A stretch of 36,233 bases of DNA from Planctomycetota bacterium (GTDB taxonomy: Bacteria > Planctomycetota > Phycisphaerae > WQYP01). The translations under genes and the position numbers were made by a program. Below the pieces are notes generated by a model. It was not told the DNA's origin, did no database searches, and saw only the letters and a list, made by a program, of their open reading frames with translations. The DNA lies in the NCBI GenBank assembly GCA_021805985.1, contig JAJZDN010000043.1:1-36233 (forward strand), given 5' to 3'. Positions 7,003 to 34,975 of this stretch are shown piece after piece. Position 1 is the first letter of the stretch. Each line of letters opens with the position of its first letter.

Positions 7003-7704
7003 CTAGACTTGGATCTTCCTGGGCCGTCCTTCGGGGCGAATGGTGTGCTCCAGGTTTAAGGTTAGCGCTGTCTGGCGCAGCCATTGCTCATCACCGAATG
7101 GCCGGCTGCGATTTTCGCTGGCCTTCAGTTGAATCAATTCTTTTTTCGTTGGCACCGCGTTGACGGCGGCGGTCCACGGCTTCAAGGCCGGCCGGCGGCC
7201 TTGTGGGCCCGCGGACAGCATTTTCCTCATGGCGCGACTATGTTCATCGTCGGAGGTTTGATGGCGCAGCCACAAGCTTCCCCAGCGCCACTGCTGGGCT
7301 CGTTTTACTACCCCCGCAGATAAGGCATTGCGTTCCACATGGCGACATACCGTGCCTAGAGGCTCACCGGATTGAACCGGGAACGCCTTGAACCTTCCCT
7401 GGTACAGAGGTCCCCCTCTCACCGAACCGTGGGCTATCCGCCAGCGCAGGGAGTGGGTATGCGCTAAGGCACGAAAATAAGCCGTCACCTCATCATCGCT
7501 GCGCGGCCAAACCACAAAATGCCAATGGTTCTTCATCAGACACCAGGAAATGATCCGCAAGGGCACGCGCCGGTACGCCTCAAGCATGACTTGCTCAAAC
7601 GCGGCATAGTCCTGGTCACCATGAAACAGGCTGATGCGCCCCGCCGACCGGTTCAGTACGTGGTAAACATATCCCCCGGGACAATATCGTGCTTTTCTAG
7701 CCAT
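7003..7704 (-). CDS. REP-associated tyrosine transposase (RAYT, Y1/IS200-like)
   Basis: A 233-residue single-strand DNA transposase of the Y1 HUH superfamily, RAYT branch. The N-terminal PGGYVYHVLNRSAGR motif is typical. The HUH motif appears as HWH in KNHWHFVVWP (about residues 60-70), followed by the family block GPLYQGRFKAFPV and then HVERNALSAGVV. Such proteins are usually single-copy domesticated transposases that mobilise REP palindromes rather than themselves. No inverted or subterminal repeats marking a complete IS are evident on either side. The only nearby dyad is a short CCGGC/GCCGG pair at 7838-7850 in the gap to atpD. The gene follows atpD in the same direction, in the place where atpC normally sits. 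It ends with a basic C-terminal region. Confidence 0.9.
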   Translation of the reverse strand: MARKARYCPGGYVYHVLNRSAGRISLFHGDQDYAAFEQVMLEAYRRVPLRIISWCLMKNHWHFVVWPRSDDEVTAYFRALAHTHSLRWRIAHGSVRGGPLYQGRFKAFPVQSGEPLGTVCRHVERNALSAGVVKRAQQWRWGSLWLRHQTSDDEHSRAMRKMLSAGPQGRRPALKPWTAAVNAVPTKKELIQLKASENRSRPFGDEQWLRQTALTLNLEHTIRPEGRPRKIQV

Positions 7705-19357: not shown

Positions 19358-19456
19358 ATATGCCCTCACTTGCCAAGGCCCTGCCCGAAACACTATATTC
19401 GCGTGGCGGTGAAGAGTAGTACCTGTTTTGAGGGTTGATTGAAAGGCCTTATTTCT

Positions 19457-22400
19457 ATGACCTCGGTAAAAGAACCGGATTCCAACTTATTCCCCGCCTC
19501 GCATCGTGCCAATATGGCCGGATATATTCGCCTGCGGCTTAAAGCCTTGGGATTGGCCTCCATCCATGAAGATCACCACGATGGAGCGCTGGACGAATTG
19601 GCGGAAGGGCTTCTGGCCAATTTCCGTCAGAAAAGCCGACTGCTGAAAGACTATCGCGTCCCCGTGGATCAGCGCATAGAAGCGTTTTTAAACCGTCAGC
19701 TTGGCCCGCTGCCCCAGCCGTTGCGTCTGCCTGCATTAACGTTCAGCCTGAATCGCGCGGGCATTGCCCGTGAATTGTCACTACCCCGTCATGGCGATCA
19801 TATTGAAAGTTCCTACGTGTCAAGTTATCGCCTGCGCAATGGCGTGCTGCACAATCCGCGCAGCGACCGCCGCACCACCAAAGGAACTTTCCACGTTACA
19901 GATTGCGGCCTGCCAGTACCGGCGGACAAAATTGCCGTGCCACCCGCGGTTTACGCGGCCTTATTTCAACAGGCTCTTCAGCCGCCGCGGGAGTTGCTCA
20001 CACTGCCCTACGCCTCCGACGTGCCCGGCGGCGTAGCGGTCTTCTGCTCCCTGCTGTTACGGCCCATTGTTGTACCGGAAGTGCCAGGCGTGAGTCCTGA
20101 AAAAAGAATGGAAATTCATTTTTTCGCTCCCGGCAGCCTGGTCAGCAACCTGGATTTCGTTGAATCCATATTTGGTAACGCCGGCGACCCTGCGTTGCCG
20201 GAAAATGATGCCGCCTTGGATGTTGAACACTGGACCGGTCACACCGGCTGCGTGATCTTGGCCCCCCACCTTACGCAATGCACAAAAAAGCAACTCGGCC
20301 TGCCCCATTGGGATCATGCCACGGATCGGCAGAAACGCGACGGCATGTGCTGGAAAACGGCGGAAGAGCTGTATAACGGCGGCTCGGCGTTTAAGCTTAC
20401 CTGCCGCAGCGCCGCCGGCGTGATGGTCACACTGATTGCCGACAACTATTTCGGCTACTGCAAAAAGGAAGTTAAAACTCAGATCAGCTTTGCCGCCAAT
20501 CTTCTGGGCAACGCCGAAGAGGAACATGCCGGCGGCGCGGTGGCCTTTGCCAGTTACAGCCTGGGCACCGAATACACGCACCGCGAAAAATACTGGAACG
20601 GTCGAACCTTTGAAGATCTCGTACGTGATTATGGCACCATCATGACTGTCATGCCGGAAGGTTATGGCATTGATAAACGCTACCCGGACATTATTTACCT
20701 GCCCCATGAAGTTCACATGGATTTATATAAACTTCTCATAACGTGGAAAAAGGATGGCAACGAACACCATATTCCTCTGCTGGCGGACAAAATATATCTG
20801 ACTCCGTCCGGGGAGAAACTCTTTCTTAATAAGCATCCCGGCTCCGAGAGATTCCGTATTGTTGTCACCACCGCTGAAGGAACTTTCTGCCATAAGCCCT
20901 GCACAGTCAGCGGAGGCGGCAAAAGCGAAATCAGCAAAAGCCTCGCAGATTACATGATCTATGGTCCGATTTATATCAACAACCTTGAAGCGGACCTTCA
21001 TGAAGTACAAGCCATTCTCAATAAAGATCATTCCGTCCGCTGGGTGGCCGGAAAGCAGCCCCATGATTATGTCGCGACGGCCAGCCGCCCGATTCTTAGT
21101 CCGCGCCGTTCCCTGGGCAGTGTCATTAAATTGCTTACGCCCAGTGCGGATTACACCGATGAATACAACCGCTGGCTGACCGCCATCCCGGTTAATATCC
21201 TCGCGCTGGTATTTTTAATTAAGCGACTGTATCAGCCGGAATGGGGTGATAATTGGCGGCATCATTTTTCCGTGGACATTATCAATGGCGAAATGGGCCA
21301 TGAACTTAAAATGGATGAACGCAAGGCCGCGGGAACGTATCTACGGGTAGGCCTGTTGCCCAATGGCGCGTGGAATACCTTTAAAGTCCGGCAGGATTTT
21401 TTTCCCGCCGCCAAGGTGCAGATGGAGGATGACATCACCGCCTCTACGGTGATTCCGGCCCGCCTGTTGCCGTACCGTATCAGCTCCACCGACGCCCCAT
21501 CGGTTAAACTCACCATTAATGCCGAAACGCGCTTATTCCAGCGACCTGATGACGCGGTTTATCCCGGCTTGGATAAACAAACCGAATTGGATATGGCCAA
21601 GGATGACAATTTCCTTTCCAACTATGAACCCCTGGATACGCAGGCAGTCGGGCAGATCGTGGATCGAATTACCGAATTTGACGCCTATACCGAACCACTT
21701 AAGCGCATGTTGCGGCAAGCCGCCAACAGCGGACGTGGATATGTTGTTTCCTCCGCGCATCCAAGAATTGTCGACGGAAAGCCCAGCAAAAATCCGCGCT
21801 ATCTTCAATACCGGCCGGATTTGGCGCGCCCCCGGGAAACGTACCTTGCCCAGATGGGTGTCCGCCTGGCCCGGGCACTGCCGCTGAATGTGCCGATTGC
21901 ATTTCCGGTTGATGCAGTACTTTTGGGCCGCCGTAACAATCCGCCCGATACCAAAGCGGGCATTCGAGCCTTGGCCGTTTACAACCCCATCCATTATCAG
22001 GAATTGCCTGAACTGTTTATGGATTTTATCTGCTCGCTTACTGGAGCCAGCCCTTCCACCACCGGCGCCGGAAGTGAGGGGGCCTTAACTAAAGGTCCCT
22101 TTAACGCCCTGTTAACCACCGCCGATCTTAACGCTGCTCTGGTCAGCTACGTGCTGACGGATCTGGCTGGATTTTCATCCGCCGCGGGCTACGCCGGCCC
22201 CCAGCGCCGCTTTGGCCATGACATCAGCCTGCTGATTCCGGAACTCTGGTGTCGGCTCAAGCCGCAGGAACGCAATCCCGCATTTCTCATTGCGGGCGGA
22301 TACCTTGAGAAAATAGAAGACTTTCAATACGAAGGCAAAACAATTCCCGCCAGCCGCCTGGGCTATCGCGTGACTGCCCGCTTCATGCGGACATTCCTAG

Positions 22401-22915
22401 GCCGCATTTTTGATAACCCCGCCCGCGTGTTTGACGAAGCCGTTCTTAAGCCGGAACTTCAGGGGCTTGATGTATTTGTTGACGGCATTATGAACATTGC
22501 GGAAACGCAGCAGCGCGTGGCGTTGCAATATTTTGAGGATGGTTCGGTGCAGCAGGCCTGCCCGCCGATTCAGGCGATTTTGCACATCATGGCCTACGGC
22601 CAATTTGAAGGCAAAGATATTCGCCACCCGGAAATCCGCCGCATGTTCACACGCGATCATGTCATGTCCAGCAACTGGTATAAAAAACGTCTGGCCGCTA
22701 AACAAATGGTGGATATCAACCTTTGGACCCGACACGTGGCCTACCTCAAAGCCTACATCGAGCAAACCCGCGATGAAACCGGTCTGGAGGAATTACAGCT
22801 TTCCACCCGCCTGGACAAAGCCCAGGAGCAACTCGCCAATGTCAGCCGGGGCGGTTATCTTGAATCTCTGATTGGCACCATCGGCGTAGACCCGTGCCTG
22901 TATGGCCCGGCGTAA
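19457..22915 (+). CDS. Candidate PPi-type phosphoenolpyruvate carboxykinase
   Basis: A 1152-residue soluble protein with no signal peptide or membrane segments. Size and overall character fit the PPi-dependent PEP carboxykinases (EC 4.1.1.38), proteins of about 1100-1200 residues that interconvert PEP, CO2 and phosphate with oxaloacetate and pyrophosphate. A P-loop-like SGGGKSEISKS lies at about residues 482-495. It resembles the kinase-1a loops of ATP- and GTP-dependent PEPCKs without matching either. Other well-ordered blocks include AHPRIVDGKPSKNPRYLQYRP and GAGSEGALTKGPFNALLTT. I recognise the family by size and motif feel, not alignment, so the name is tentative. The ATG at 19457 has AAAGG ten bases upstream; a TTG at 19439 with GAGGG four bases upstream is a real alternative. 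folD follows after 12 bases. Confidence 0.55.
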   Translation: MTSVKEPDSNLFPASHRANMAGYIRLRLKALGLASIHEDHHDGALDELAEGLLANFRQKSRLLKDYRVPVDQRIEAFLNRQLGPLPQPLRLPALTFSLNRAGIARELSLPRHGDHIESSYVSSYRLRNGVLHNPRSDRRTTKGTFHVTDCGLPVPADKIAVPPAVYAALFQQALQPPRELLTLPYASDVPGGVAVFCSLLLRPIVVPEVPGVSPEKRMEIHFFAPGSLVSNLDFVESIFGNAGDPALPENDAALDVEHWTGHTGCVILAPHLTQCTKKQLGLPHWDHATDRQKRDGMCWKTAEELYNGGSAFKLTCRSAAGVMVTLIADNYFGYCKKEVKTQISFAANLLGNAEEEHAGGAVAFASYSLGTEYTHREKYWNGRTFEDLVRDYGTIMTVMPEGYGIDKRYPDIIYLPHEVHMDLYKLLITWKKDGNEHHIPLLADKIYLTPSGEKLFLNKHPGSERFRIVVTTAEGTFCHKPCTVSGGGKSEISKSLADYMIYGPIYINNLEADLHEVQAILNKDHSVRWVAGKQPHDYVATASRPILSPRRSLGSVIKLLTPSADYTDEYNRWLTAIPVNILALVFLIKRLYQPEWGDNWRHHFSVDIINGEMGHELKMDERKAAGTYLRVGLLPNGAWNTFKVRQDFFPAAKVQMEDDITASTVIPARLLPYRISSTDAPSVKLTINAETRLFQRPDDAVYPGLDKQTELDMAKDDNFLSNYEPLDTQAVGQIVDRITEFDAYTEPLKRMLRQAANSGRGYVVSSAHPRIVDGKPSKNPRYLQYRPDLARPRETYLAQMGVRLARALPLNVPIAFPVDAVLLGRRNNPPDTKAGIRALAVYNPIHYQELPELFMDFICSLTGASPSTTGAGSEGALTKGPFNALLTTADLNAALVSYVLTDLAGFSSAAGYAGPQRRFGHDISLLIPELWCRLKPQERNPAFLIAGGYLEKIEDFQYEGKTIPASRLGYRVTARFMRTFLGRIFDNPARVFDEAVLKPELQGLDVFVDGIMNIAETQQRVALQYFEDGSVQQACPPIQAILHIMAYGQFEGKDIRHPEIRRMFTRDHVMSSNWYKKRLAAKQMVDINLWTRHVAYLKAYIEQTRDETGLEELQLSTRLDKAQEQLANVSRGGYLESLIGTIGVDPCLYGPA

Positions 22916-24235: not shown

Positions 24236-25534
24236 TCACTTTTTTTCGCGCGGACTTGGTGAAAGCAATTTCGACAGGCCGGACAGGTTTACCGCCATGG
24301 CCGCAAGCTGCGCCGGGGTACGCCGACCCGCTTTCCAACTTTGGTGGCCGACGCACCACAGCCGTCCGCTTTTCGTGAAACAAAGATAGTATTCAAACCA
24401 GGGACCACCAAACGCCCTGGACTTTTTACGACAGGATACAGCGTAAACGTCCTTCCCGCCGGTTCGCGTAAAGATTGCGGCGACCTGGGTCGATCCGTGA
24501 AAAAAATAAGAAAAGGAGGCTTGTGCAAACAGCCTCACCGCTTGGCGAACGGCCTTTCGGGCGTGCCGCACTGGCGGCGGGGTTACACCCGTGATCTGCA
24601 GCAGGAAGCTCTCCTCAGGCGAGAGGCGCTTTAGAATTTTTTCCGCAGTGGCGAGGGCTTGCCCCACTTGCGCACGGGGTAGCCCAAGGGCAAGCATCGC
24701 CTTGGAAACAACCGCACCAGCGCCAAAGCGGGCGGAGGGAAATGGCCAAAAGGATTCGCAGATCACTATCTTGTCGGGCGGCCAGAGGGATTTTTGTTTC
24801 GGCCATTCGCACTGCAGCGATGCGGTCGCGCTGGAATAATCTGCATCAATCTGAAACGCTCGCAGGGCGTGGGCCTTGGGCACGCCTGATGTCGAAAGCA
24901 CAAGCGACCGAGTGGGACCGGGGATCCAACCCGTCACACGGGCCATTCCATTGGACCACGCCCCCAAATAAATTGCGAAGGATCCTGCAGGTGGCGAGCC
25001 AGGGGGCGGAAACCCGGGAATTGGGGGCAGCAGGGGCCCAGTGTGTGCGGGCCTCTCCCAGTGGAGCCGATGGAGGTATCCCGGAGGTCCAATCGGGATC
25101 AGCTTGGTCTGGCTCTTTCCAGCGCCGTTAGAGGACGTAAAATGCCAGACTCCCCCCACCGCCCGGCCCCGGCGTGCCACAGGGTAGAGTCGCAAGAAGT
25201 CAATCCGTCCTGGCACCCCTAGCCGCTTGCCAAGGAAGTCAATTCTAGTCTTGGGGCGAAAGCGGAAAAACGCGGCTCGCACCGCCCTGATTGGAACTCC
25301 GACGGGGCCGCGGCATAGAGGCCAATGGGGCGACGGTGCCTTGGGGAGGTGTTTAACCGCAGTAAACTTTTCCCACGCCCCTGCGGGTCTAAGATCCCCG
25401 TCGCCTGAGCATGGAAGAACGGAAGGGACAATGGCAATCAGCAACGCGACAGAAAACACCTGCACGGACGAAATCATCCGGCCGGCACCGCGGAAAGTTA
25501 CGGACGCAAACATCTTTGCCAAACGGTCAAACAT
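24236..25534 (-). CDS. Unknown 432-residue protein coupled to the RHS gene
   Basis: I do not recognise this protein. Its ATG directly abuts the RHS stop (TGAATG) and is preceded by a perfect AAGGAGG, so it is made from the RHS transcript. A hydrophobic segment at about residues 20-42 (MISSVQVFSVALLIAIVPSV) suggests a signal anchor or signal peptide. It ends in a Cys (VLPC) that is not a canonical lipobox. The next ~150 residues are Pro/Arg-rich. The C-terminal half looks folded, with an Ala/Leu-rich helical part (ATAEKILKRLSPEESFLLQ) and a Trp/Tyr/Cys-rich end (FEYYLCFTKSGRLWCVGHQ). Its position fits an immunity or partner protein for the RHS tail, but at 432 residues it is large for an immunity protein. 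The terminator at 23821-23857 lies downstream. Confidence 0.7.
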   Translation of the reverse strand: MFDRLAKMFASVTFRGAGRMISSVQVFSVALLIAIVPSVLPCSGDGDLRPAGAWEKFTAVKHLPKAPSPHWPLCRGPVGVPIRAVRAAFFRFRPKTRIDFLGKRLGVPGRIDFLRLYPVARRGRAVGGVWHFTSSNGAGKSQTKLIPIGPPGYLHRLHWERPAHTGPLLPPIPGFPPPGSPPAGSFAIYLGAWSNGMARVTGWIPGPTRSLVLSTSGVPKAHALRAFQIDADYSSATASLQCEWPKQKSLWPPDKIVICESFWPFPSARFGAGAVVSKAMLALGLPRAQVGQALATAEKILKRLSPEESFLLQITGVTPPPVRHARKAVRQAVRLFAQASFSYFFHGSTQVAAIFTRTGGKDVYAVSCRKKSRAFGGPWFEYYLCFTKSGRLWCVGHQSWKAGRRTPAQLAAMAVNLSGLSKLLSPSPREKK

Positions 25535-28500
25535 TCACTCCTCCTTGAGCGTTGTGGTAAGCTCATGGAGTGCATTCCAGATTGACTCCACAGCGTGTTT
25601 TTTGCTCCCTGCTATCGACCCAGGAAGATAAAGGTTATTGGGGTCGTCAGATGACCGGTTGGCGCTCATGGGAATTATGCGCAGGTCATTGGTAGCGGCG
25701 GAAAGAAACTTGAGGTTTTGATAATTCGTCCCGCAGCAATACGAGTATGTGTAGGTACGTGTGTACGTTGCGTAGAGGTCCCAGATGTACAAAACACTAT
25801 TGAGGGTGATATTATCGGTCCACAGACTTACAAGCTTTGTTTCTGGGACCAAGTTGGCAACCCCCTTCACCGCAGCCTTCGCGATCTCGCCAAGCAGCCC
25901 GTGTCCGGAGGTCGAGTGGGATCCGGTGCTGGTGATCGTACCGAGGAACGCCCGATAGGAATTCGTTCGCGCTGCGCAGCACCCGGCGGTGCCAGCCGGA
26001 CAGGAAGGAAGCTTAACCAGTTGGCCGTATGTTATCTTGGGGTGGCCCATCTGAATCCCCTCGTGGGTCACGTACGACTCAATTAGTCCCGACGGATCCA
26101 TCGCCGCCACCGGCCGCCCCCCGACATACTCATACAAATTCACGCCGCCGGCGTAGCCGATGGGATCGCGTTGCAGCCAGCGGCCCAGCGCTGCGTTGTA
26201 GCTGCGGTTGCGGACGTAATACAATTCCGTTTCGGGATCGAATCTGTATCCGCAGAAAATGATTTCATTCGCACCGAAGTAGGACTGCGTGTCGTTGTCC
26301 GACCACCAGTTCCCTTGGTACGGGGCAGTGAAAATAATCGTATTTCCGTAGGCATCAGTGTCGTAAGCTTCGGCAATAGCGCCCGTTGAATTCGTCAACG
26401 CCACAGCCCGATACAGCAAATCTTGGAGCAGGTAATAAGTGCCGGCGGGCACGTTTTGCGCTCCCAGTGTGGTAAGTGTCGTAAGCTGGATGCACTCATC
26501 AATATAGGTCCCCCAGATGTATTGCTTGATGGGGGTGTCGGTGGAACCGGTTCCGCCGAATGGGTTGCGCTCCTCCCTCACTTGATTGCCCATATAGATA
26601 TAATCCGTCGTGCCATTGGGAACTGCCGAAGACAGCCCCCCGTTGGAAATCGTCTTGCGAATCCTCCGGTTAAATGCGTCCAGGACGTAGGCACCGAGTT
26701 GTTGCGGCGGGCGGGGTCCGGCACCGACGAATCCGATGGAAATTGGGCGGTTGAGGGAGTCGTACGCATAGGTCAGCGTGCCGTCGCTGGCCAGATTGCC
26801 ATTACTTGCACCGGATACGCCATCGTGCTGGAACGTGACCTCCGGGCTGGTCCCCACTGTCCGTTGAGTAATCTCATTGAGCTTGTTGTGGTTCCGCTGA
26901 TCGAAGGTCAGGTGGGAGCTAATCAGTTCCGCACCACTAAGCTTCCAGTTCCCCAAACCGTCCAGATCGTAGGTTCGCAGCGCAGCCGAGCCCGGCAAGG
27001 TGATGGGAGTTGCAACGCTGCCGCCGCCGGCGTTCTGATAGCCGCCGGTACCGCTTAGGGTCCCGCGTTGGTATTGCAAGAGCCTATTGATGGAATCATA
27101 GCCCGGCTGCGGCGAAGCGATATTGCCCGTGTTATCCACGGGTTGATAAAGGAAGCTTCTGCTTTCCGCGTGCAAGGCTCTTTCGTAATATTTATTGCCC
27201 GCCGGATCAAAGGCGGTGGTGTTGCCTACTACCGGCGTGGTGTTGTTGTAGGCAAAGGTTGTGGAATTGATGCCGCCGGATAGATACCGCTTGGCGATCA
27301 TTCTTCCGCCGCCCTCGTAGCCTAATCGGTCACTGGCTGGTGTGCCCCATGTGGGATTGGGAACGGTGTTGTATTGCACCGCACTGTGGGTTCTGGCATT
27401 GTTGAGCGTGGTTTGAATAATGCCGTTGCCCAGAGCGACTTCCGCCACGCGGCTGGGACCGAAGAATTGCCAACTGGCGATCACAGCACTGGTGGCTTGT
27501 TCTATAACTTGTTGCCTTCGGTAAAGCTTATCCAGGCTGTTATTGATCTGGCGGGCATTGGGGAAGGTGAACTGGCTGACGGGCAAAGACGTAAAGGCGT
27601 TGTTGGTGACATAGCGTGTGTTGCCGCCATAAGCTTGCTCTTCTTCGATGGTCCTCTGGATGGAATCATAAACTATTGTTACATCGGCATTGTTGCCATT
27701 GGCGGTATCACGGGCAAAGGTGGTTTGGCTTAAGCCGTTGTATTGGAAGCTCTGGGCGGTCGTGCCGCCGATGCCGGATGCCGGTGCGATGGTTGTATTT
27801 GTCTTTCGGCTCATAGGATCCCAAGTGTTGGTAAACTTCGATCCATTGCAATCGGTATATTGCACCACATCGCTGGCTAGGTCATAAACGAAAATTTCGG
27901 TCGAGCCGTCGTGAAGGGTCTGCGAGATTTTGCGGTCGTGTGAATCAAAGGCCCAGCGCGTCACACCGCCGCGATCATCCACCATCGCAATCTGATTGGA
28001 ATTGCCATCATATTCCAGGCTGGTCTGAATGCTCCCCGCGATCTGGCCTTGGCCGGAGGTGTTGAACGTGGTGCTTTGGCCATTGCCATTATTGACCGGC
28101 GGATTGCTGCCCAAACCGTTCTGGCGTAAGTGCTGGCGGGTTTCAAGCGATCTGTTGGCCCCGTCCCAAACCGTGATGGCGGTATTGCCCTTGGGATCAA
28201 TGTTTAATGTTACATTGCCTCGACTGTCATAACCGGTAAGGGTAATTCTGGCGAGATTGACACCCTGGGCTGGAGATATTGAGCCATCCGAACCGTTCTG
28301 GGCTAAAATCACTTGGCGGTTCATGCAATCCCACGCCATCAGGGTGGTAAACACTTCGGCTGTCTGCACCGGCTGGGTGATGGTCGATAGTTCCGTTCGC
28401 GTGACACCTACCGGATTGCCATTGTTATCAAAGGCTGTAGCGGTGGTGTTGCCCAGAGTATCGGTAGCCAGAATCGGGCGATTGGCCCCGTCATAAGCGG

Positions 28501-31500
28501 TGGTGCCGACCGCGGCGTTATCCATAGCGCCGGCGATGCTGCGGCTGGATCGGTCAAAGACCGTTCTTGTCAACACATAGCTGCTTCCACCGGTGGTCAG
28601 GGTCACGGTGCTGGTATTGGAATTGGTGGTGGAATTGGCGGCCAATCCACCACCGGTGTGGGTGACTGTTCTTCCTGAAGGGATATTGTTTGTTGGTACG
28701 CCGCCATATAGGCCGGTGTTGAGAAAGACATTCTGCTGGCTTTCATAAGCTCTGCCCGCTTCATCACAGCGGGTTTGCAGCAGTTCCAGCGGGACATTGT
28801 TGTTGCCGTTGCGATCGGTGGGCGTTGGGCCGTTGGGCGTACCGGTAATCTGCCTTTGGATATTCTGTCCTGTGGGGTCAAAGGTGTTGCTGGTTACTCC
28901 ACCGATACTGTCGGTTGCGGACACTATACGGTTAAAGCCATCGAAGGTATTGGCCAAGAGCCAGTCACCGGTTTGGGTAAGGGAACTGCCGGAGTTAAAG
29001 GCGTTGGCGATTGTGACACTGAGGCTGTTATTACTTGTGCCTCTTTGGGCCGAGCCGATGACATTAAGCAGATCGCCATTGGCGTCAAAGACGCTTACCG
29101 ATACCGAGCCGGGATCACTGCCGGGGACATAGCCGATGCGTTGGGCTATTTTCAAATCACGTTCGTCGTAATCGAATTGAACGTTATTGCCGTTGGGTCT
29201 GGTGATCTGGATTGCGTTCTGATTGGCATCAAAGCTGTAGCTGGTTACCAGGCTCGCGGGGTTGGAGCCTGTGGCGTCGATGTCATCTTGAATTCTGTCA
29301 TCGAGAATGTCAAAGGTGTACAAATTGGTAAACCAGCCGGGGCGAATGGTTCCGCCAGGGCCGCTTTGCATGGGGATATTGGCAGCCGATGATCCGTTGC
29401 CGGAGGGAATAAACTGGGCAAAGTCCGGATCGTTGGGATCAAGGCTTTCGTAGGCCACCTGCTGATCTTGAGTGTCAACACGGGTCGTGTTGCGGTTGGA
29501 ATCATAATACTGTTGTGTCTGGAATAAATAGGGAGCCGGGCCGGTGCGTAGATATTGCTCTCCCATTTCCGTACGCAGGTAGCTGGTGGTATTGCCGTTG
29601 GGATCGGTCACCGCCAGAGGGTTGCCCAAGGGGTCGTAGGCGCAGGTTGGGCAACCGGCTGAACCCGTGCCTCCTTCATAACGGGTGACCAGATTAAGAT
29701 ATTGGTCTGGCGTGTTGACGCGGGTGATGATATTGCCGGTAAAAGCTGCCAAATCGCCATCTTCTCCAACGAGATCCGTAACCTGGCTGGGATTGGCATC
29801 AACATGCACTTCCCGTAATCGGCCATATTGCTTATTGGATAGAAATGTGGGGGCGTATTGGCCATTGCCTTCGGGATCATTTTCGGGGTAGCGGACATAC
29901 ACCGTCAAGTTACCTTCCGGGTCGGTATATGTGGTGGTTTGGCCAGCATAGTTGTTGGTGTAAAGTTCCATTATCAATTGGGTCTGCCAGACCCAGGGTG
30001 TTGAGCCCGTGGAGGGTACGAGCTGGTAAATAGATGGGTGTTGAATTTTAACCACACTGCCCAGCGTCGCGGATGGGTTAAGCCCCGATGAATTGCCATC
30101 ACCGGTGCCGTCGCCATTAATATCGCCAAGATTGGTTTGAAAGCCGCCGGGCAAGCCACCGGCGATCATCTGGTTACTGGCATAAGTGACCAAGCTTTGT
30201 ATCTGCGCGGCAGTAAGCCCCAGCAGATTTTGCAGGGCACTGGAGCCGGTGATGGTGCTGGTCTGATTTTTCTGGTAGTCAAACGTGGTGATTGTGGCGT
30301 AGCGGCTGCGATTGGCATCGGTGGGTGTGGTGCCGCCATTCTGGGGTGTGAAGTAAATGTTGCTTCCGCTGTTGACGGCGATGGGATTGCTCTTTTCGTT
30401 AATTTCTGCGCACTGCTGGTTGTAAATCGGGTCAAAGAAGTACGTTTTGGTCAGTTGTGTCTGGCCGTTGGAACCAGGCCGGCTGGGTATACCAATGCTG
30501 TTACCGGGGAAGTGGGTTTCGGAGAGCAATAACCCTCTTCTTGGAGGGTAAAGCTGTGGCCCGGAGCCAAAGTCGATCATGCCGGTATCGTAGCTGTACG
30601 CCCTGCTGTCGCCGGCGGGAAAGACTTCCAGGAGCTTCTGATTTTGGTCGTTGTATTGGGTCCATGTGATATAGGGGCCGGTTTCCAGGCTGGATTTGTT
30701 GCGATTGGTGTTTTCCTGCTTCATAACGACCATGCCGTTGTAGTTAAAATTAAATATCTTCACATTGCCGTTGCGGTCGGTCATGGTGGTCTGGCTGACA
30801 ATTGGATCACTGGGATCAATGATGTTGGCAGGTAGACTGGCATTGCTGTAGCTGAAGGTAGAGGTGCCTCCAACGCCATTGGCGGGATCGCCGACGGTTT
30901 CGGAAACGACTGCACCGTAGTCAATGGCAGTAGAAGTCTGGCCGTAGGCGATAACGTAACGCGGCGCGGCATTGGCATAGACCGAGGCTATATCTACTGC
31001 TCGACTGCTGACAAAGGGCTGGGTTTGATTGGGGTACCAGATTTTAATTAAATCGTTCTGGCGGTTGGGGTCCGTGTTGTTGACATCATACTGGAACACA
31101 TAGGCTGTGCCGTCGGGATAGGTGTTGCCCGCTGGGGCGTTGTTGATGCTGGGCAGGATTATGGCCACCAAATGTCCCGGTGAATCATATTGGAAGTTGA
31201 TCTGTCGGCCCAGAAAATCAGTAAGGCCGCTACATTTATAACCGTAGGTGGCGTTGTAATAGGAATAGGTGGTTGTTCGGCCATAGGCGTCGGCGACGGA
31301 AGTCAATTGCGGTACAGCTGCGGTGCTGGTCCAGGTGAGCGTCTGGCTGTTGCCATAACGATCGGTGGTGCTTTTCATTCGGCCCGGCGTGGTGATCGAA
31401 GAATAAAAGCCGAAGAATTCCGTCACTGTGCCGGCGTTGCTGGTGAGGATAAATGTGTCATTGGCGGTTCCGGCATTGATTTCCACGAGTGTGGCCTGCG

Positions 31501-31975
31501 TGCTGTTGTAACCCGAGAGCCATTGGCCGTTGCCGTTATAGATAAAGGTTTCCTGCAGGTTGTCGGGGGTGGTCAGCACGATGTCGCCATTGGGCAATTG
31601 GCTAAGTTGGTAATTCTGGCTGTAGTTCCAATACAAGCCCACGAGGTCGTCAACGCCGTTATTAGAGAGGTATTGCAGGGAAAGTTGCCACGAGCCTCCG
31701 CCAATGGCCGGCGCGGAAAGCAAATCCAGTGAAAAGATAAATTCGCCCGTGGCCAGCATGACCGAGTTGCTTTGACTGGTGCTTGTTGTGCCCAGCGGAA
31801 AGGAACTCACCGGGCTGCTCGATCCGCAGCAACTACCGGTACACGGGCCGGGGTTAGGCTTGGGCCTGGGATGGTGATGATGGTGGTGATGATGATGATG
31901 GGGATTTGGATTAGGATTAGGATTGGGGCCCGGCCCCGGCGGGATGGTCTGGCAGTTATTCAAATTTGCAGCCAT
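25535..31975 (-). CDS. Giant RHS/YD-repeat protein with His10 N-terminus and variable tail
   Basis: A 2146-residue RHS family protein. Residues 1-50 are low complexity: an Asn-Cys-Gln at 7-9, Pro-Asn repeats, ten consecutive His at 26-35, and cysteines at 45, 49 and 50. There is no Sec signal. From about residue 55 to 1900 it is built of YD repeats (for example YDPLGNPLAVTDPNGN and YDSRGNVTLNIDPKGN), which form the hollow RHS shell. The RHS core lies at about 1909-1964, with RNRSYNAALGRWLQRDPIGY, and ends DPSGL, where such proteins self-cleave. The 182-residue tail after it is the expected variable effector; I see no known nuclease or deaminase motif, but it has two Cys-Cys pairs and a hydrophobic middle. 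GAGGAG lies 11 bases before the ATG. Confidence 0.95.
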   Translation of the reverse strand: MAANLNNCQTIPPGPGPNPNPNPNPHHHHHHHHHHPRPKPNPGPCTGSCCGSSSPVSSFPLGTTSTSQSNSVMLATGEFIFSLDLLSAPAIGGGSWQLSLQYLSNNGVDDLVGLYWNYSQNYQLSQLPNGDIVLTTPDNLQETFIYNGNGQWLSGYNSTQATLVEINAGTANDTFILTSNAGTVTEFFGFYSSITTPGRMKSTTDRYGNSQTLTWTSTAAVPQLTSVADAYGRTTTYSYYNATYGYKCSGLTDFLGRQINFQYDSPGHLVAIILPSINNAPAGNTYPDGTAYVFQYDVNNTDPNRQNDLIKIWYPNQTQPFVSSRAVDIASVYANAAPRYVIAYGQTSTAIDYGAVVSETVGDPANGVGGTSTFSYSNASLPANIIDPSDPIVSQTTMTDRNGNVKIFNFNYNGMVVMKQENTNRNKSSLETGPYITWTQYNDQNQKLLEVFPAGDSRAYSYDTGMIDFGSGPQLYPPRRGLLLSETHFPGNSIGIPSRPGSNGQTQLTKTYFFDPIYNQQCAEINEKSNPIAVNSGSNIYFTPQNGGTTPTDANRSRYATITTFDYQKNQTSTITGSSALQNLLGLTAAQIQSLVTYASNQMIAGGLPGGFQTNLGDINGDGTGDGNSSGLNPSATLGSVVKIQHPSIYQLVPSTGSTPWVWQTQLIMELYTNNYAGQTTTYTDPEGNLTVYVRYPENDPEGNGQYAPTFLSNKQYGRLREVHVDANPSQVTDLVGEDGDLAAFTGNIITRVNTPDQYLNLVTRYEGGTGSAGCPTCAYDPLGNPLAVTDPNGNTTSYLRTEMGEQYLRTGPAPYLFQTQQYYDSNRNTTRVDTQDQQVAYESLDPNDPDFAQFIPSGNGSSAANIPMQSGPGGTIRPGWFTNLYTFDILDDRIQDDIDATGSNPASLVTSYSFDANQNAIQITRPNGNNVQFDYDERDLKIAQRIGYVPGSDPGSVSVSVFDANGDLLNVIGSAQRGTSNNSLSVTIANAFNSGSSLTQTGDWLLANTFDGFNRIVSATDSIGGVTSNTFDPTGQNIQRQITGTPNGPTPTDRNGNNNVPLELLQTRCDEAGRAYESQQNVFLNTGLYGGVPTNNIPSGRTVTHTGGGLAANSTTNSNTSTVTLTTGGSSYVLTRTVFDRSSRSIAGAMDNAAVGTTAYDGANRPILATDTLGNTTATAFDNNGNPVGVTRTELSTITQPVQTAEVFTTLMAWDCMNRQVILAQNGSDGSISPAQGVNLARITLTGYDSRGNVTLNIDPKGNTAITVWDGANRSLETRQHLRQNGLGSNPPVNNGNGQSTTFNTSGQGQIAGSIQTSLEYDGNSNQIAMVDDRGGVTRWAFDSHDRKISQTLHDGSTEIFVYDLASDVVQYTDCNGSKFTNTWDPMSRKTNTTIAPASGIGGTTAQSFQYNGLSQTTFARDTANGNNADVTIVYDSIQRTIEEEQAYGGNTRYVTNNAFTSLPVSQFTFPNARQINNSLDKLYRRQQVIEQATSAVIASWQFFGPSRVAEVALGNGIIQTTLNNARTHSAVQYNTVPNPTWGTPASDRLGYEGGGRMIAKRYLSGGINSTTFAYNNTTPVVGNTTAFDPAGNKYYERALHAESRSFLYQPVDNTGNIASPQPGYDSINRLLQYQRGTLSGTGGYQNAGGGSVATPITLPGSAALRTYDLDGLGNWKLSGAELISSHLTFDQRNHNKLNEITQRTVGTSPEVTFQHDGVSGASNGNLASDGTLTYAYDSLNRPISIGFVGAGPRPPQQLGAYVLDAFNRRIRKTISNGGLSSAVPNGTTDYIYMGNQVREERNPFGGTGSTDTPIKQYIWGTYIDECIQLTTLTTLGAQNVPAGTYYLLQDLLYRAVALTNSTGAIAEAYDTDAYGNTIIFTAPYQGNWWSDNDTQSYFGANEIIFCGYRFDPETELYYVRNRSYNAALGRWLQRDPIGYAGGVNLYEYVGGRPVAAMDPSGLIESYVTHEGIQMGHPKITYGQLVKLPSCPAGTAGCCAARTNSYRAFLGTITSTGSHSTSGHGLLGEIAKAAVKGVANLVPETKLVSLWTDNITLNSVLYIWDLYATYTRTYTYSYCCGTNYQNLKFLSAATNDLRIIPMSANRSSDDPNNLYLPGSIAGSKKHAVESIWNALHELTTTLKEE

Positions 31976-32002
31976 GGTTCAATTACTCCTCGTCGTAGTA
32001 GC

Positions 32003-33163
32003 TCAGGTTAATGCCGCCGCACGGTTCTGGCGCGTGCCCAGGGGCCTCGGCTTTCTCAATGGGGATTGCATCGCGAAGCGCCCAGCGACCCTCGGCTTCG
32101 CCGCCGCATCAGGCCGCTTGATCGCCGGGCGTTTTAATCTCGCGGCCGCGCGTATCGGGGCAGCAGCCGCAGCGGGAACCGGCTGAACGGTGCGGCGCAG
32201 CAATTCCGGTGCGTTGCGGCGATTGCTCTGTGCCCGGCGTGCCGCCGCTTTCGCAGCGGATGACGCCCAAGTAAAAAGGCGGTTCAGGCCGGAGATATGC
32301 TCCGGAAAATCTTGTTTGAGCCGTTCGATATAACGGTTCACCAACGCCCAAGCGCGAACCGGCTCTTCCCGGAGCTTTTGTTTATCACCCCAGAGGTGTG
32401 TGGCAACGCTTTCATCGTGTGGTGGTCCCGGCAGCAATGCCCTCACCCTGGCACTGCGGGCCTTGGAGCACTGGGCCAATAAATACTGCTCTGCAAAGCA
32501 GGCGTGGTTGAATGGGTCATCGCCCGGATTGCCGGACATGAAGCGGATGGCCTGGGTTGTGGACTCTTCCCTGATCTTCTCGTTATTAAAAACGAGGAAC
32601 CCCAAGTTGAATTCCTCACCATCCCACGGGTATGCGGGACGATTATAGCCTGAGGGAATCGCATAGTTCCTTCCGTCCCCGCGTTCGTTGAACTCACGAT
32701 GCAGAAAAGTCACATCGAACTCTGCCCAATCGGCAACCGGCTTCCAAACCACCAGATCAACATCCAGAAAGGCCGCCGGCAACGCTGCTGCGCGGTAGGC
32801 AAAGACTTTCGGTGCAACCCAAAATGTGTCGTAGCGAATGCAATCCGGCATGGCATCGAGCACCGCCGTGTCAATCCCGGCGTCATAAATCCAGCTCAAG
32901 CCGAGACTATCGATAAACGCCGCGAATTCGGAATCAGCATACAGCCGCATGGGGCCGCTGTGCTTTCGCCAGTGCAACGCGCCAAGCGCCAGCGTGCAGG
33001 CCACGACAGGGTCCAACGGTTCTAAGCCAGCTCGCCCCCGCGCGCGAGCCGGGCGAAGCGAATAAACGTGATGGCCGGGAAGAGCGGCCGCGCAATCATC
33101 CTCAAAGAGTTTACGAATTGTCCGCTCCATGCTTGTTCGCCGCCATTCCAATTCACTCCACAT
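32003..33163 (-). CDS. GT-A-like glycosyltransferase in the RHS operon
   Basis: A 386-residue protein resembling nucleotide-sugar-dependent glycosyltransferases with a GT-A fold (the DUF6734-like group is my best guess). The N-terminal half carries the beta-strand block VVACTLALGALHWRKHSG, then YADSEFAAFIDSLGL. The metal-binding motif is AAFLDVDLVVWKPV, with DxD at about residues 134-136. A later GEEFNLGFLVFNN and a His/Glu-containing NHACFAEQYLLAQC complete the likely active site. The last ~70 residues are an Ala/Arg/Pro-rich basic tail of unknown role. The ATG at 33163 overlaps the upstream stop by 11 bases; no Shine-Dalgarno is evident, so coupling is likely. An ATG at 33130 is an alternative. 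It may glycosylate the neighbouring RHS or BACON protein. Confidence 0.78.
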   Translation of the reverse strand: MWSELEWRRTSMERTIRKLFEDDCAAALPGHHVYSLRPARARGRAGLEPLDPVVACTLALGALHWRKHSGPMRLYADSEFAAFIDSLGLSWIYDAGIDTAVLDAMPDCIRYDTFWVAPKVFAYRAAALPAAFLDVDLVVWKPVADWAEFDVTFLHREFNERGDGRNYAIPSGYNRPAYPWDGEEFNLGFLVFNNEKIREESTTQAIRFMSGNPGDDPFNHACFAEQYLLAQCSKARSARVRALLPGPPHDESVATHLWGDKQKLREEPVRAWALVNRYIERLKQDFPEHISGLNRLFTWASSAAKAAARRAQSNRRNAPELLRRTVQPVPAAAAAPIRAAARLKRPAIKRPDAAAKPRVAGRFAMQSPLRKPRPLGTRQNRAAALT

Positions 33164-34139
33164 ATAATGTTTGAGGCAGGGTCGGGTATCCCGGTCCGGG
33201 GCTAAGGGCAACGTAGACCCCGCCGGGCGTGGTTCCGCACAGCTTGACGTAGCCAGCCTGCTGAGGGGCACCGGCCTGGCCAGCCATCAGGAGGGAAATG
33301 ATCCAGCGCGATCCAGGACTCAGCGCCAAACCCGCGTCAGGGGCGAGAATTGCTGAAGGCGTGCAGTAAACAGGCTCCGCGGCGTAGATGCCATATCCCT
33401 CCCAGCAGAAAAACCCGATGTTGGTGTTGGTGCCGTAGACGCAGGGTGCCGCCCACTCCCCCGCTCCCACCATGACAACCTGCCCATCGTAATTCCCACC
33501 GACCCTGCTGAGCTGCGAACAGGTGGCGATCGCCGCTCCACCGTTCTCAGTGACCGGGCCACCTCGTATGAAGTAACTGCTCGCCAGCCCGGGCGGAACC
33601 TGGGTAGGCACGTCGGCATCATTCACTGTGACGGTCAGTTGCGTGCAGCCGACAATGTCCACGGCCACCAACCCACCCTGCGGCGGGTTGGAAATCGGCA
33701 GTGCGGTAACGGTCAGCGAAGCGCTGCCACTTGCATCCAATTTTCCGCTGGCGGGAGATACCGACAGCCAGCCTCCAGTGGAGGATGCGGAGGCTGTAAA
33801 CGCTGCGTTCGGGGGACCATATTGTATTTCGACGGTATAGGTGCCGCCCGCAGAAGGACAAAAGCTCAGATAGGCCGGGTGGATTTCCGCCGCGCAGCAA
33901 GTGGAGCAGTTGGAAAAACTTTCACCCATGTAGGCGGCGCTGGCATAGCTACCGCTCGCCGGGCTCTGCGGCTGTGCGTTGGCCGGAATTGAGTAACACG
34001 CGCCGTTGTACGCAAACGCGCCGCCGCTGCCGAGCAGACCTCCGGGGAGCAGGGGTTTACTCACCCACAAAGGCGTCGGCCCCGTGTACCCGGGACAGAG
34101 GGTGGCCTGAATGAACTGGCAATTCTGCGCGCTACCCAT
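33153..34139 (-). CDS. Cys-rich protein with BACON-like domain
   Basis: A 328-residue protein without a Sec signal. It begins MGSAQNCQ, sharing Asn-Cys-Gln near the N-terminus with the RHS protein. Cysteines continue at 15, 48, 78, 81, 82 and 94, including a C-x-x-C-C cluster. Residues ~95-173 resemble a BACON/Ig-like beta domain (GGWLSVSPASGKLDASGSAS, ending in LTVTVND), a fold often involved in carbohydrate binding or surface attachment. The C-terminal half is Gly/Ala/Pro-rich with further cysteines and ends in beta-type sequence (GYPTLPQTLYVE). The ATG has AAGGA seven bases upstream. It overlaps the glycosyltransferase gene. The protein may be an extracellular partner or adaptor of the RHS protein; its function is not known. 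Confidence 0.8.
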   Translation of the reverse strand: MGSAQNCQFIQATLCPGYTGPTPLWVSKPLLPGGLLGSGGAFAYNGACYSIPANAQPQSPASGSYASAAYMGESFSNCSTCCAAEIHPAYLSFCPSAGGTYTVEIQYGPPNAAFTASASSTGGWLSVSPASGKLDASGSASLTVTALPISNPPQGGLVAVDIVGCTQLTVTVNDADVPTQVPPGLASSYFIRGGPVTENGGAAIATCSQLSRVGGNYDGQVVMVGAGEWAAPCVYGTNTNIGFFCWEGYGIYAAEPVYCTPSAILAPDAGLALSPGSRWIISLLMAGQAGAPQQAGYVKLCGTTPGGVYVALSPGPGYPTLPQTLYVE

Positions 34140-34209
34140 GGATATTCCTTCGCGTAAGAGCGGGAGCCACCGCGGCCTGCAAATTGCAGCAGTAACCGGC
34201 TACCTCCAT
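34132..34209 (-). CDS. Possible 25-residue leader ORF with Cys-Cys
   Basis: A short frame, ATG at 34209 to TAG, overlapping the start of the BACON-like gene by 8 bases. AAGGCGGGG lies about 4 bases before the ATG. It encodes a peptide with Tyr-Cys-Cys-Asn-Leu-Gln near the middle. The overlap could couple translation of the next gene. It may be chance; the Cys-Cys pair is of interest only because neighbouring genes also have one. Confidence 0.22.
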   Translation of the reverse strand: MEVAGYCCNLQAAVAPALTRRNIHG

Positions 34210-34307
34210 CGCACCCCGCCTTGCTGCCGTTCCTGCTGGCAAGCCGACGACAATTCAGGCCACAAAACTCCCCTGCGCACGCCCCGAAACCGGCCCAGCG
34301 GGCGGTT

Positions 34308-34532
34308 TCAGCGGACGCTTCTGCGATTCCGGACTGCGCTTCGCCGCTCCAACCCGGGCGTTCGTACGGAGCGCTGGGGCGGCTGCCGCACCAACTCCCC
34401 GGCCCCCGAGCCAGTCCGAGCCGTGAGGCGAGCCGCATTTGGTAGACCGTGGCCTTGGGAAGCCGCGCCTGCGGACTGCCCCGGCAATTGCCGCCCCTGC
34501 TCCGGAAGTTTCCGTCCACCGCAGCATCCCAT
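34308..34532 (-). CDS. Small MGCCGG-type protein
   Basis: A 74-residue basic, Gly/Arg/Gln-rich protein that begins MGCCGGRKLPEQGRQLPGQS. It starts 20 bases after the upstream stop and has GGAG nine bases before the ATG, the arrangement expected inside an operon. No membrane segment or known domain is seen. Small proteins that open with a Cys-Cys-Gly are, in my recollection, common in phage-tail-like cassettes, but I cannot name a family. The region is GC-rich and has overlapping frames: one of 102 codons from a TTG at 34563 and one of 152 codons from 34519. The coding choice therefore rests on the start context. Confidence 0.45.
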   Translation of the reverse strand: MGCCGGRKLPEQGRQLPGQSAGAASQGHGLPNAARLTARTGSGAGELVRQPPQRSVRTPGLERRSAVRNRRSVR

Positions 34533-34552
34533 AGTGGTTTACTCCGCAGCTT

Positions 34553-34834
34553 TCACCGGCCAATGAACAGCCAGAACACAGCCGGCACCATCAGGCAGCC
34601 AAACCAAATCCACCCCTGTCGGTACATTGACCACCAGGGAAACGAGAGCAAAAGTCCCGTCCAGAAGCTAAAACAGATGTAACAATCCAGAACGCCATGG
34701 GCAAACCTGGGCAGTATTCTTCGCAGGACTTTTTCACGTACAAACGCACCCGGGCCATCCTTCGGCCAAACGACCAGAATCGTAAGGCCCATGGCCGAGA
34801 GAACGTAGGCGAGAAAAATCGTGAATTGCGCCAC
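34553..34834 (-). CDS. Small membrane protein with C-x-x-C / W-x-G motif, first gene of the RHS operon
   Basis: A 93-residue predicted inner-membrane protein with about three helices: FTIFLAYVLSAMGLTILVVW, then a segment around CYICFSFWTGLLLS, then GWIWFGCLMVPAVFWLF. The middle segment C-x-x-C-x-x-x-W-x-G recalls the DUF1360 family of small membrane proteins, whose function is unknown. The open frame extends to 34996, but that would run through the predicted promoter and an inverted repeat. A GTG at 34834 with GGAG seven bases upstream is the better start. The leader would be about 105 bases. The protein could anchor or assemble the exported components encoded downstream. Confidence 0.6.
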   Translation of the reverse strand: MAQFTIFLAYVLSAMGLTILVVWPKDGPGAFVREKVLRRILPRFAHGVLDCYICFSFWTGLLLSFPWWSMYRQGWIWFGCLMVPAVFWLFIGR

Positions 34835-34913
34835 ACAAGCACGCTCCACCAAAATCCAATGACTCGTTCCCGCACCCCGAAACCACAGCCGGACGAAATT
34901 CCGCTGTAGCGAA

Positions 34914-34943
34914 GCGCGTCGCCAGAAACTGCAGGCGACGCGC
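34914..34943 (-). promoter_or_regulatory. Perfect 10-bp inverted repeat at the RHS operon start site
   Basis: GCGCGTCGCC and GGCGACGCGC (10 bp each, 10-base spacer) form a perfect inverted repeat starting two bases downstream of the predicted -10 box. It covers the expected transcription start, so it could be a repressor operator or a stable 5' stem-loop in the mRNA. Confidence 0.65.
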
Positions 34944-34945
34944 GA

Positions 34946-34975
34946 ACAATAACGCGCTGCTGTCCGTGATGTCAA
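34946..34975 (-). promoter_or_regulatory. Sigma70-type promoter of the RHS operon
   Basis: On the minus strand a perfect TTGACA (34975-34970) is followed after 18 bases by TATTGT (34951-34946, 4 of 6 matches). It points at the small membrane gene and through it at the whole accessory operon. A/T-rich DNA upstream (34976-35010) may act as an UP element. Confidence 0.6.

Follow-up and report, generated by a model that had tools for sequence, protein, structure and literature searches.

A recurring family of probable Rhs polymorphic-toxin cassettes with interchangeable sugar genes in Phycisphaerae

Results

Gene content and layout of the cassette

The window analysed here is a stretch of 36,233 nucleotides (contig JAJZDN010000043.1 of assembly GCA_021805985.1), corresponding to contig C6 of a 4.68-Mb metagenome-assembled genome (G000; 95.5% complete, 3.6% contamination) whose relatives are Planctomycetota/Phycisphaerales metagenome-assembled genomes. 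At 24236-34849 on the minus strand it carries a cassette in which genes for a small membrane protein, a short protein starting with MGCC, a BACON protein, a glycosyltransferase-like (GT-like) protein, a large RHS protein and a downstream partner follow one another in tight series. Throughout, Gnnn:Cn designates genome and contig, a contig label alone refers to the window genome, and Lnnn is an extracted locus. The features are as follows.

34946..34975, minus strand: leader promoter, with TTGACA (34975-34970), an 18-nucleotide spacer and TATTGT (34951-34946); from conservation across loci
34917..34940, minus strand: 7-base-pair stem CGTCGCC ... GGCGACG just 3' of the -10 box, probable RNA 5' hairpin; from 9 sequences
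34553..34849, minus strand: small CxxC membrane protein of about 93-98 amino acids with two to three hydrophobic segments; common to all cassettes
34308..34532, minus strand: MGCC small protein, 74 amino acids, with a conserved start M[GA]CCGGRKL.EQGRQL and a variable remainder; from recurrence
33153..34139, minus strand: protein with a conserved Cys-rich N-terminal domain (~84 residues) and a variable C-terminal part, here BACON (BACON_2)
32003..33130, alternative start 33163, minus strand: glycosyltransferase-like protein with DVD and NLG motifs typical of GT-A (DUF6734)
25535..31975, minus strand: RHS protein, 2146 amino acids; from Pfam, NCBIfam and a PDB sequence search
26087..26167, minus strand: aspartyl-protease motif DPIG-X19-DPSG within the Rhs C-plug, at about residues 1937-1963; from alignment to Tse5 (8cp6) and Rhs (7q97)
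25538..26083, minus strand: variable C-terminal RHS tail of about 182 amino acids, probable toxin domain; unrelated to the tails of similar cores
24236..25534, minus strand: partner protein, 432 amino acids, hydrophobic across residues 26-42 and probably conferring immunity; TGAATG junction with RHS
24027-24011 and 23857-23833, minus strand: terminator-like hairpins, read from the sequence

The first-pass annotation had described six tightly arranged minus-strand genes, and all six open reading frames (ORFs) are present with the gaps, overlap and junction it claimed. Successive genes are separated by 20, 168, 22 and 27 nucleotides, and RHS and partner meet at TGAATG with a gap of 0; an 11-base overlap between the BACON and GT-like genes replaces the 22-nucleotide gap only if the alternative in-frame ATG at 33163 is used. 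The membrane gene ends at 34553 with in-frame starts at 34849 or 34834, which corrects a mechanical ORF call of 147 amino acids to about 93-98. Terminator-like hairpins do exist beyond the cassette, 0.2-0.4 kb past the last gene.

Substitutions between the window genes and their paralogs were counted at codon positions 1/2/3, giving 1/4/15 for the membrane gene, 16/9/47 for the N-terminal part of the BACON gene, 28/24/48 for the GT-like gene and 293/246/687 for RHS. This concentration at third positions indicates that these four genes are real, and the same holds more weakly for MGCC (26/21/44), in which the third-position excess is smaller, yet still present.

Predicted toxin layout of the RHS protein and its partner

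From its N-terminus onwards, the RHS protein consists of a Cys/His/Pro low-complexity region, a DUF6531-like N-plug (residues 70-144; E=4.9e-4, below the cut-off), a YD-repeat shell and an Rhs core end (residues 1897-1964), with Rhs core and YD repeats matched in NCBIfam at 1e-18 and 3.6e-12. Its closest solved relative is Tse5 (8cp6, E=1.8e-13), a pore-forming Rhs toxin, and in this type of protein DUF6531 forms the N-plug while a DPXGX18-19DPXG aspartyl-protease motif releases the Rhs tail (PMC10684867). That motif is found in the window protein, and sister copies, read directly, keep its Asp positions while P and G vary.

Identity to related copies breaks off at residue ~1600 or ~1900. Relative to the paralog in C119, identity is about 90% up to residue ~1600, 55-72% to ~2000 and 23-29% beyond, and relative to G006:C88 it falls from 81-97% up to ~1900 to 12-18% past 2000. 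More generally, tails are 12-29% identical where RHS cores are 83-88% identical, and only two pairs of related tails were found among 15 compared. Downstream of RHS, C98, G004:C6, G024:C72 and G005 carry displaced ends of the core equipped with separate tails and partners, a layout which is that of described rhs-CT/rhsI orphan modules (PMC3150448). By sequence, then, the RHS protein has the full layout of a polymorphic toxin, with N-plug, YD shell, protease motif and switched tail, and the tail is probably a toxin used between bacteria. The contact-toxin part of the first-pass annotation is likewise favoured by tail switching and by the paired downstream genes.

The position of the partner gene and its junction with RHS fit a probable immunity protein. 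An N-terminal hydrophobic segment was scored in 12-13 of 15 partners versus 23 of 78 control ORFs (29%; Fisher p 4e-4 or less), by a hydropathy rule of our own and with partner ORFs chosen by us, partly after inspection. The window partner itself has no Pfam family and no meaningful PDB sequence match. Together with the hydrophobicity of some of the tails themselves and with a pore-forming toxin as closest solved relative, these segments suggest that many tails may act on the envelope.

The cassette recurs within the genome and in related genomes

The arrangement is a real, recurring unit. A second complete copy lies on C119 of the same genome (GT-like protein 87% identical, N-terminal part of RHS 93%), with one extra gene duplicating the Cys-rich N-terminal domain, and a sister species carries membrane, MGCC, BACON, GT-like (89%), RHS (90%) and partner genes in an order identical to that of the window (G006:C88). 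G006:C64 holds a deleted version, and in G007 the membrane gene, an MGCC-like stretch and the BACON gene are followed by the contig end. Homologues of the partner genes thus do occur beside RHS genes elsewhere, the point on which the first-pass annotation had staked its proposal of a system. The MGCC protein is 61% identical in C119 and is also found in G006:C88 and G006:C64, the match in G007 being out of frame.

The membrane gene likewise comes before three further RHS genes of the window genome (in C167, C98 and C197), with different sugar genes in between: a UDP-galactopyranose mutase (UGM) fused to DUF3431 in C167 and C197, and a GT2 plus a GT9-like protein in C98, the latter read from sequence with no Pfam match. 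Among the sugar enzymes seen across cassettes (in L077, around the genes) are UGM-DUF3431, GT2, Mannosyl_trans3, a methyltransferase, sulfotransferases, a PLOD-type GT and a capsule/GT25/sulfotransferase fusion. Fusions of UGM with a DUF3431-type domain (739-980 amino acids) adjoin RHS genes at L014:2306-4525 and L041:1990-4932. A fixed pairing of each RHS N-terminus type with one sugar module was considered and rejected, as in G024:C72 the UGM module goes with another type of N-terminus. Contig C98 (L013) matches contigs of G024 (L040, L063), from another genus, at 98.9-99.6% identity over 8 kb, down to the same inserted transposase; it may reflect recent transfer or misbinning, and our conclusions are independent of it. 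Many cassettes end at contig edges.

Viewed across these copies, the conserved unit is the leader promoter with its putative small RNA stem, the CxxC membrane protein and the RHS gene, the genes in between being interchangeable, and the BACON and window-type GT-like genes form one of several interchangeable modules rather than defining parts of the system. Such exchange could also mean that RHS and surface-glycan genes are merely co-located in a hypervariable island through shared recombination hotspots, with GT, BACON and MGCC having no direct role with RHS. Differing glycan genes, often on the opposite strand, do occupy the same slot, the L077 cassette sits within a long glycan-biosynthesis region, and transposases lie in or beside cassettes. 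In addition, G004 and G006 hold different cassettes at the same serine recombinase and flanking gene, which suggests cassette exchange at one site; this recombinase lies beside a gltB-like gene, upstream of the RHS cassettes (L038:3143-4702 in G006, L039:2688-4247 in G004). We nevertheless consider this explanation rather unlikely, given that the window-type GT-like and RHS genes are spaced 27 nucleotides apart on one strand and retained as a pair, 87-89% identical, in three cassettes from two species, and that the membrane gene and leader accompany cassettes throughout the group.

A small membrane protein and a shared leader accompany the RHS genes

The membrane protein is rare, found in 2 of 392 genomes of the phylum, and has 8 full or partial copies in the window genome. 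In all 12 loci with enough visible sequence (C6, C119, C167, C197, C98, G004:C6, G005:C53, G006:C88, G006:C64, G024:C72, L077 and L078), an RHS gene lies 0.4-9 kb from the membrane gene. The most distant of these include Phycisphaera RI_212 (L077), with a 52% identical membrane protein encoded on the opposite strand, and an IMG/VR contig (L078), in which a 60% identical membrane protein is still followed by a divergent RHS (core about 28% identical). Exceptions to the pairing are degenerate copies, namely G004:C93, with a stop codon, and fragments in G011 and C152. The protein has no Pfam family, its PDB sequence search gave nothing meaningful, and neither it nor the MGCC and partner proteins had a significant PHROGs, PADLOC or NCBIfam match. 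A relationship to DUF1360, suggested by the CxxC-FW pattern, found no Pfam match and is not claimed. As the only constant candidate for RHS export or anchoring, the protein may serve in one of these roles.

The first-pass annotation had placed the genes behind a single TTGACA promoter. The sequence exists, but is unremarkable by chance alone, as promoters of this type are near expectation (9 sites found versus 6.6 expected). What argues that it is real is its conservation in other cassettes and the finding of only these cassettes by a model of the leader. The pattern 5' of the membrane gene consists of a T-run, TTGAC[AC], 18 nucleotides, TAT[TC]GT and then the 7-base-pair stem, and it is conserved in ten aligned loci, with the -35 box retained in 13; G007, G005 and G006:C64 keep the T-run and -35 box and differ in the -10 region. 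A covariance model of the leader (R1) gave seven matches in the whole genome, all at membrane-gene copies (E 1.6e-22 to 3.9e-11), followed by a next-best match at E=0.007; since the model was built from several of the same seven loci, the informative part is the lack of other strong matches. Within the stem, substitutions across 9 sequences are one-sided and mostly preserve a G-U pair, with none compensatory on both sides, which favours a probable RNA hairpin over a DNA palindrome. These shared leaders suggest that the cassettes are probably regulated alike. Two more leaders with truncated membrane-gene copies lie at or near contig ends (L013:1-305 and L023, G000:C79), so the genome holds more cassettes than are readable.

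The BACON-type protein is likewise built of a constant and a variable part. The BACON label is supported by a BACON_2 match in Pfam (E=1.8e-6, residues 116-171), but the conserved portion of the protein is a novel N-terminal Cys domain lying outside that match, which is rarer than the membrane protein: among 397 genomes of the class it was detected in 6 places, all within three genomes of this genus, apart from a marginal match elsewhere (E=8e-4). Window-type GT copies at 87-89% identity occur in C119 and G006:C88 only. PDB sequence searches with the GT-like and BACON proteins gave nothing meaningful, and an AlphaFold2 model of the latter, with a predicted local distance difference test (pLDDT) score of 36.9, was too poor for fold searches. 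In the L077 cassette, the place of the BACON protein is occupied by a 332-residue protein (L077:6063-7061) that weakly matches Mtd, a phage receptor-binding protein (E=0.005).

Delivery and comparison with known systems

The earlier statement that the RHS protein lacks a signal peptide, PAAR and VgrG domains, and that a type VI route is therefore unsupported, is borne out. No signal-like segment occurs in the first 75 residues (maximum hydropathy 0.52), a Pfam scan of the RHS protein returned no PAAR domain (genome-wide PAAR and sheath searches were not made), and PF04717 (VgrG/spike) is absent from the 95.5%-complete genome in a search that detects it in E. coli. Two other parts of the first-pass annotation were not supported: surface display, as the RHS protein lacks a signal peptide or anchor, and a self-contained nature, as the cassette has no secretion machinery, for which the small membrane protein is only a candidate. 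A type VII-like route was considered as well: the Pfam scan of RHS found no WXG/LXG domain, and the WXG100/FtsK export system, present in the genome and linked to RHS only once, was not adopted. A conserved type VII-like locus, encoding a WXG100 protein, an FtsK-type ATPase and an additional protein whose match is Imm33-like, lies beside an mnmE-like gene in C52 (L084:16313-18501). No RHS accompanies that copy; such a locus adjoins an RHS array only in G005:C53 (L079/L081).

The cassettes resemble Rhs toxins of the type VI secretion system (Tse5/Tsi5, RhsP and Tre23-type) in their YD shell, DUF6531-like N-plug, DPXG-X19-DPXG C-plug, switched tail and downstream partner. Unlike these, the window RHS has no PAAR, its genome lacks a VgrG/spike domain, its N-terminus is instead Cys-rich and of low complexity, and an accessory membrane gene and glycan genes are present. 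With contact-dependent inhibition (CDI) and rhs orphan loci (Poole 2011, PMC3150448) they share displaced core-end, tail and partner sets downstream of a full-length gene. They differ from CDI loci in having no CdiB or other known exporter, as no transporter-like gene was recognised in the cassettes read and RHS carries no secretion-signal-like segment, and in partners that mostly have membrane or signal segments. WapA-type Rhs proteins of Gram-positive bacteria combine Rhs repeats and a variable toxin tail with no type VI secretion system. An example is S. suis WapA (PMC12704120). In contrast to this type, the window RHS has neither signal peptide nor wall-binding domains.

Serine-rich repeat glycoprotein loci encode dedicated, variable glycosyltransferases and an accessory Sec system. 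The likeness to them, a giant protein bearing low-complexity sequence at its N-terminus (PSPSPS in L077, His/Pro/Gly-rich elsewhere) beside variable sugar enzymes, raises the alternative that the RHS and BACON products are not toxins but giant adhesins, secreted and glycosylated, for which the putative binding type of the BACON domain could also speak. We regard this as improbable. Neither a signal peptide nor an anchor nor accessory Sec genes were seen, and most copies have no Ser-rich acceptor, their low-complexity N-termini being poor in Ser/Thr. The protein itself is an Rhs shell, and it shares with toxins the protease motif, the exchange of tails and the orphan tail-partner pairs.

An origin as the remnant of a phage tail or receptor-binding locus appears very improbable. 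The BACON model that matches is viral, the L077 cassette contains the Mtd-like match mentioned above, and one membrane-gene homolog lies on a contig classed as viral, yet a search of 50,697 phage records gave no match to the membrane protein, IMG/VR none to BACON-type proteins, PHROGs matches are insignificant except for Rhs itself, and PF04717 is missing from the genome. The contig in question (L085, IMGVR_UViG_3300037605_000034) carries the membrane gene, an RHS gene with a LamG insertion, a serine recombinase and a transposase; no virion gene was recognised over the 18 kb examined, and the contig is probably bacterial.

Elsewhere in the window, positions 7003-7704 encode a Y1 (IS200-like) transposase domain protein, apparently of the REP-associated type, between a glycoside hydrolase 92 gene and an ATP synthase operon, and positions 19439-22915 encode a 1157-residue protein adjoining folD, with no Pfam match at E<=0.01.

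Discussion

Taken together, these results make it reasonably probable that the locus belongs to a family of Rhs polymorphic-toxin cassettes with an interchangeable accessory sugar module. Several observations weigh against this reading, beyond the self-chosen scoring of partner hydrophobicity noted above. No delivery route was identified for RHS, the tails match no Pfam toxin family and the partners no Pfam immunity family, and at 290-460 residues the partners are large for immunity proteins. While the glycosyltransferase label retains its DVD and NLG motifs and a DUF6734 match (E=3.3e-5), that match scores 23.9 bits against a Pfam cut-off of 27, and the AlphaFold2 model of the protein (pLDDT 36.4) was unusable. 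A related RHS in G024:C88 has no membrane gene visible upstream. Finally, in UGM-type sister cassettes the sugar gene, placed between those for the membrane and RHS proteins, runs on the opposite strand, so that its coupling would be by linkage and not by one transcript; the single operon proposed by the first-pass annotation fits gene order and strand in the window type, but is limited to it.

On the toxin-cassette reading, the shared leader would drive the membrane protein and, in window-type cassettes, the downstream MGCC, BACON, GT, RHS and partner genes. The RHS protein would probably fold as a closed YD-repeat shell with N-plug and C-plug, the C-plug aspartyl protease would cleave off the variable tail as the toxin, and the partner would act as the matching immunity protein, held at the membrane or periplasm since most tails would act on the envelope. 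Recombination would exchange core end, tail and partner together, with displaced tail-partner pairs piling up downstream. The GT would probably decorate the RHS and BACON proteins or the surface glycan of the producer, allowing the particle to be recognised, attached or tolerated, and the BACON protein, with its constant Cys-rich N-terminus and variable C-terminus, could be the target-binding part.

A bolder version would see here a previously undescribed contact-toxin platform of Phycisphaerae, in which the CxxC membrane protein exports or anchors Rhs toxins in place of a type VI spike, the glycan module decorates the particle or the producer surface, and one cassette-specific leader co-regulates the repertoire; we hold this to be unlikely as a whole. 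The Rhs protein belongs to a known type, but its combination with the common promoter, the small CxxC membrane protein and swappable sugar genes looks new, and no paper linking RHS genes with dedicated glycosyltransferases was found in the literature searched (open-access full text).

For Rhs toxins with no recognisable delivery route, the membrane protein, linked to RHS across cassettes and divergent RHS types, offers one concrete candidate gene for the missing route. The common leader suggests that a single cell may hold a co-regulated set of toxins, and the sugar modules beside RHS make a link between toxin deployment and protein or surface glycosylation directly testable.

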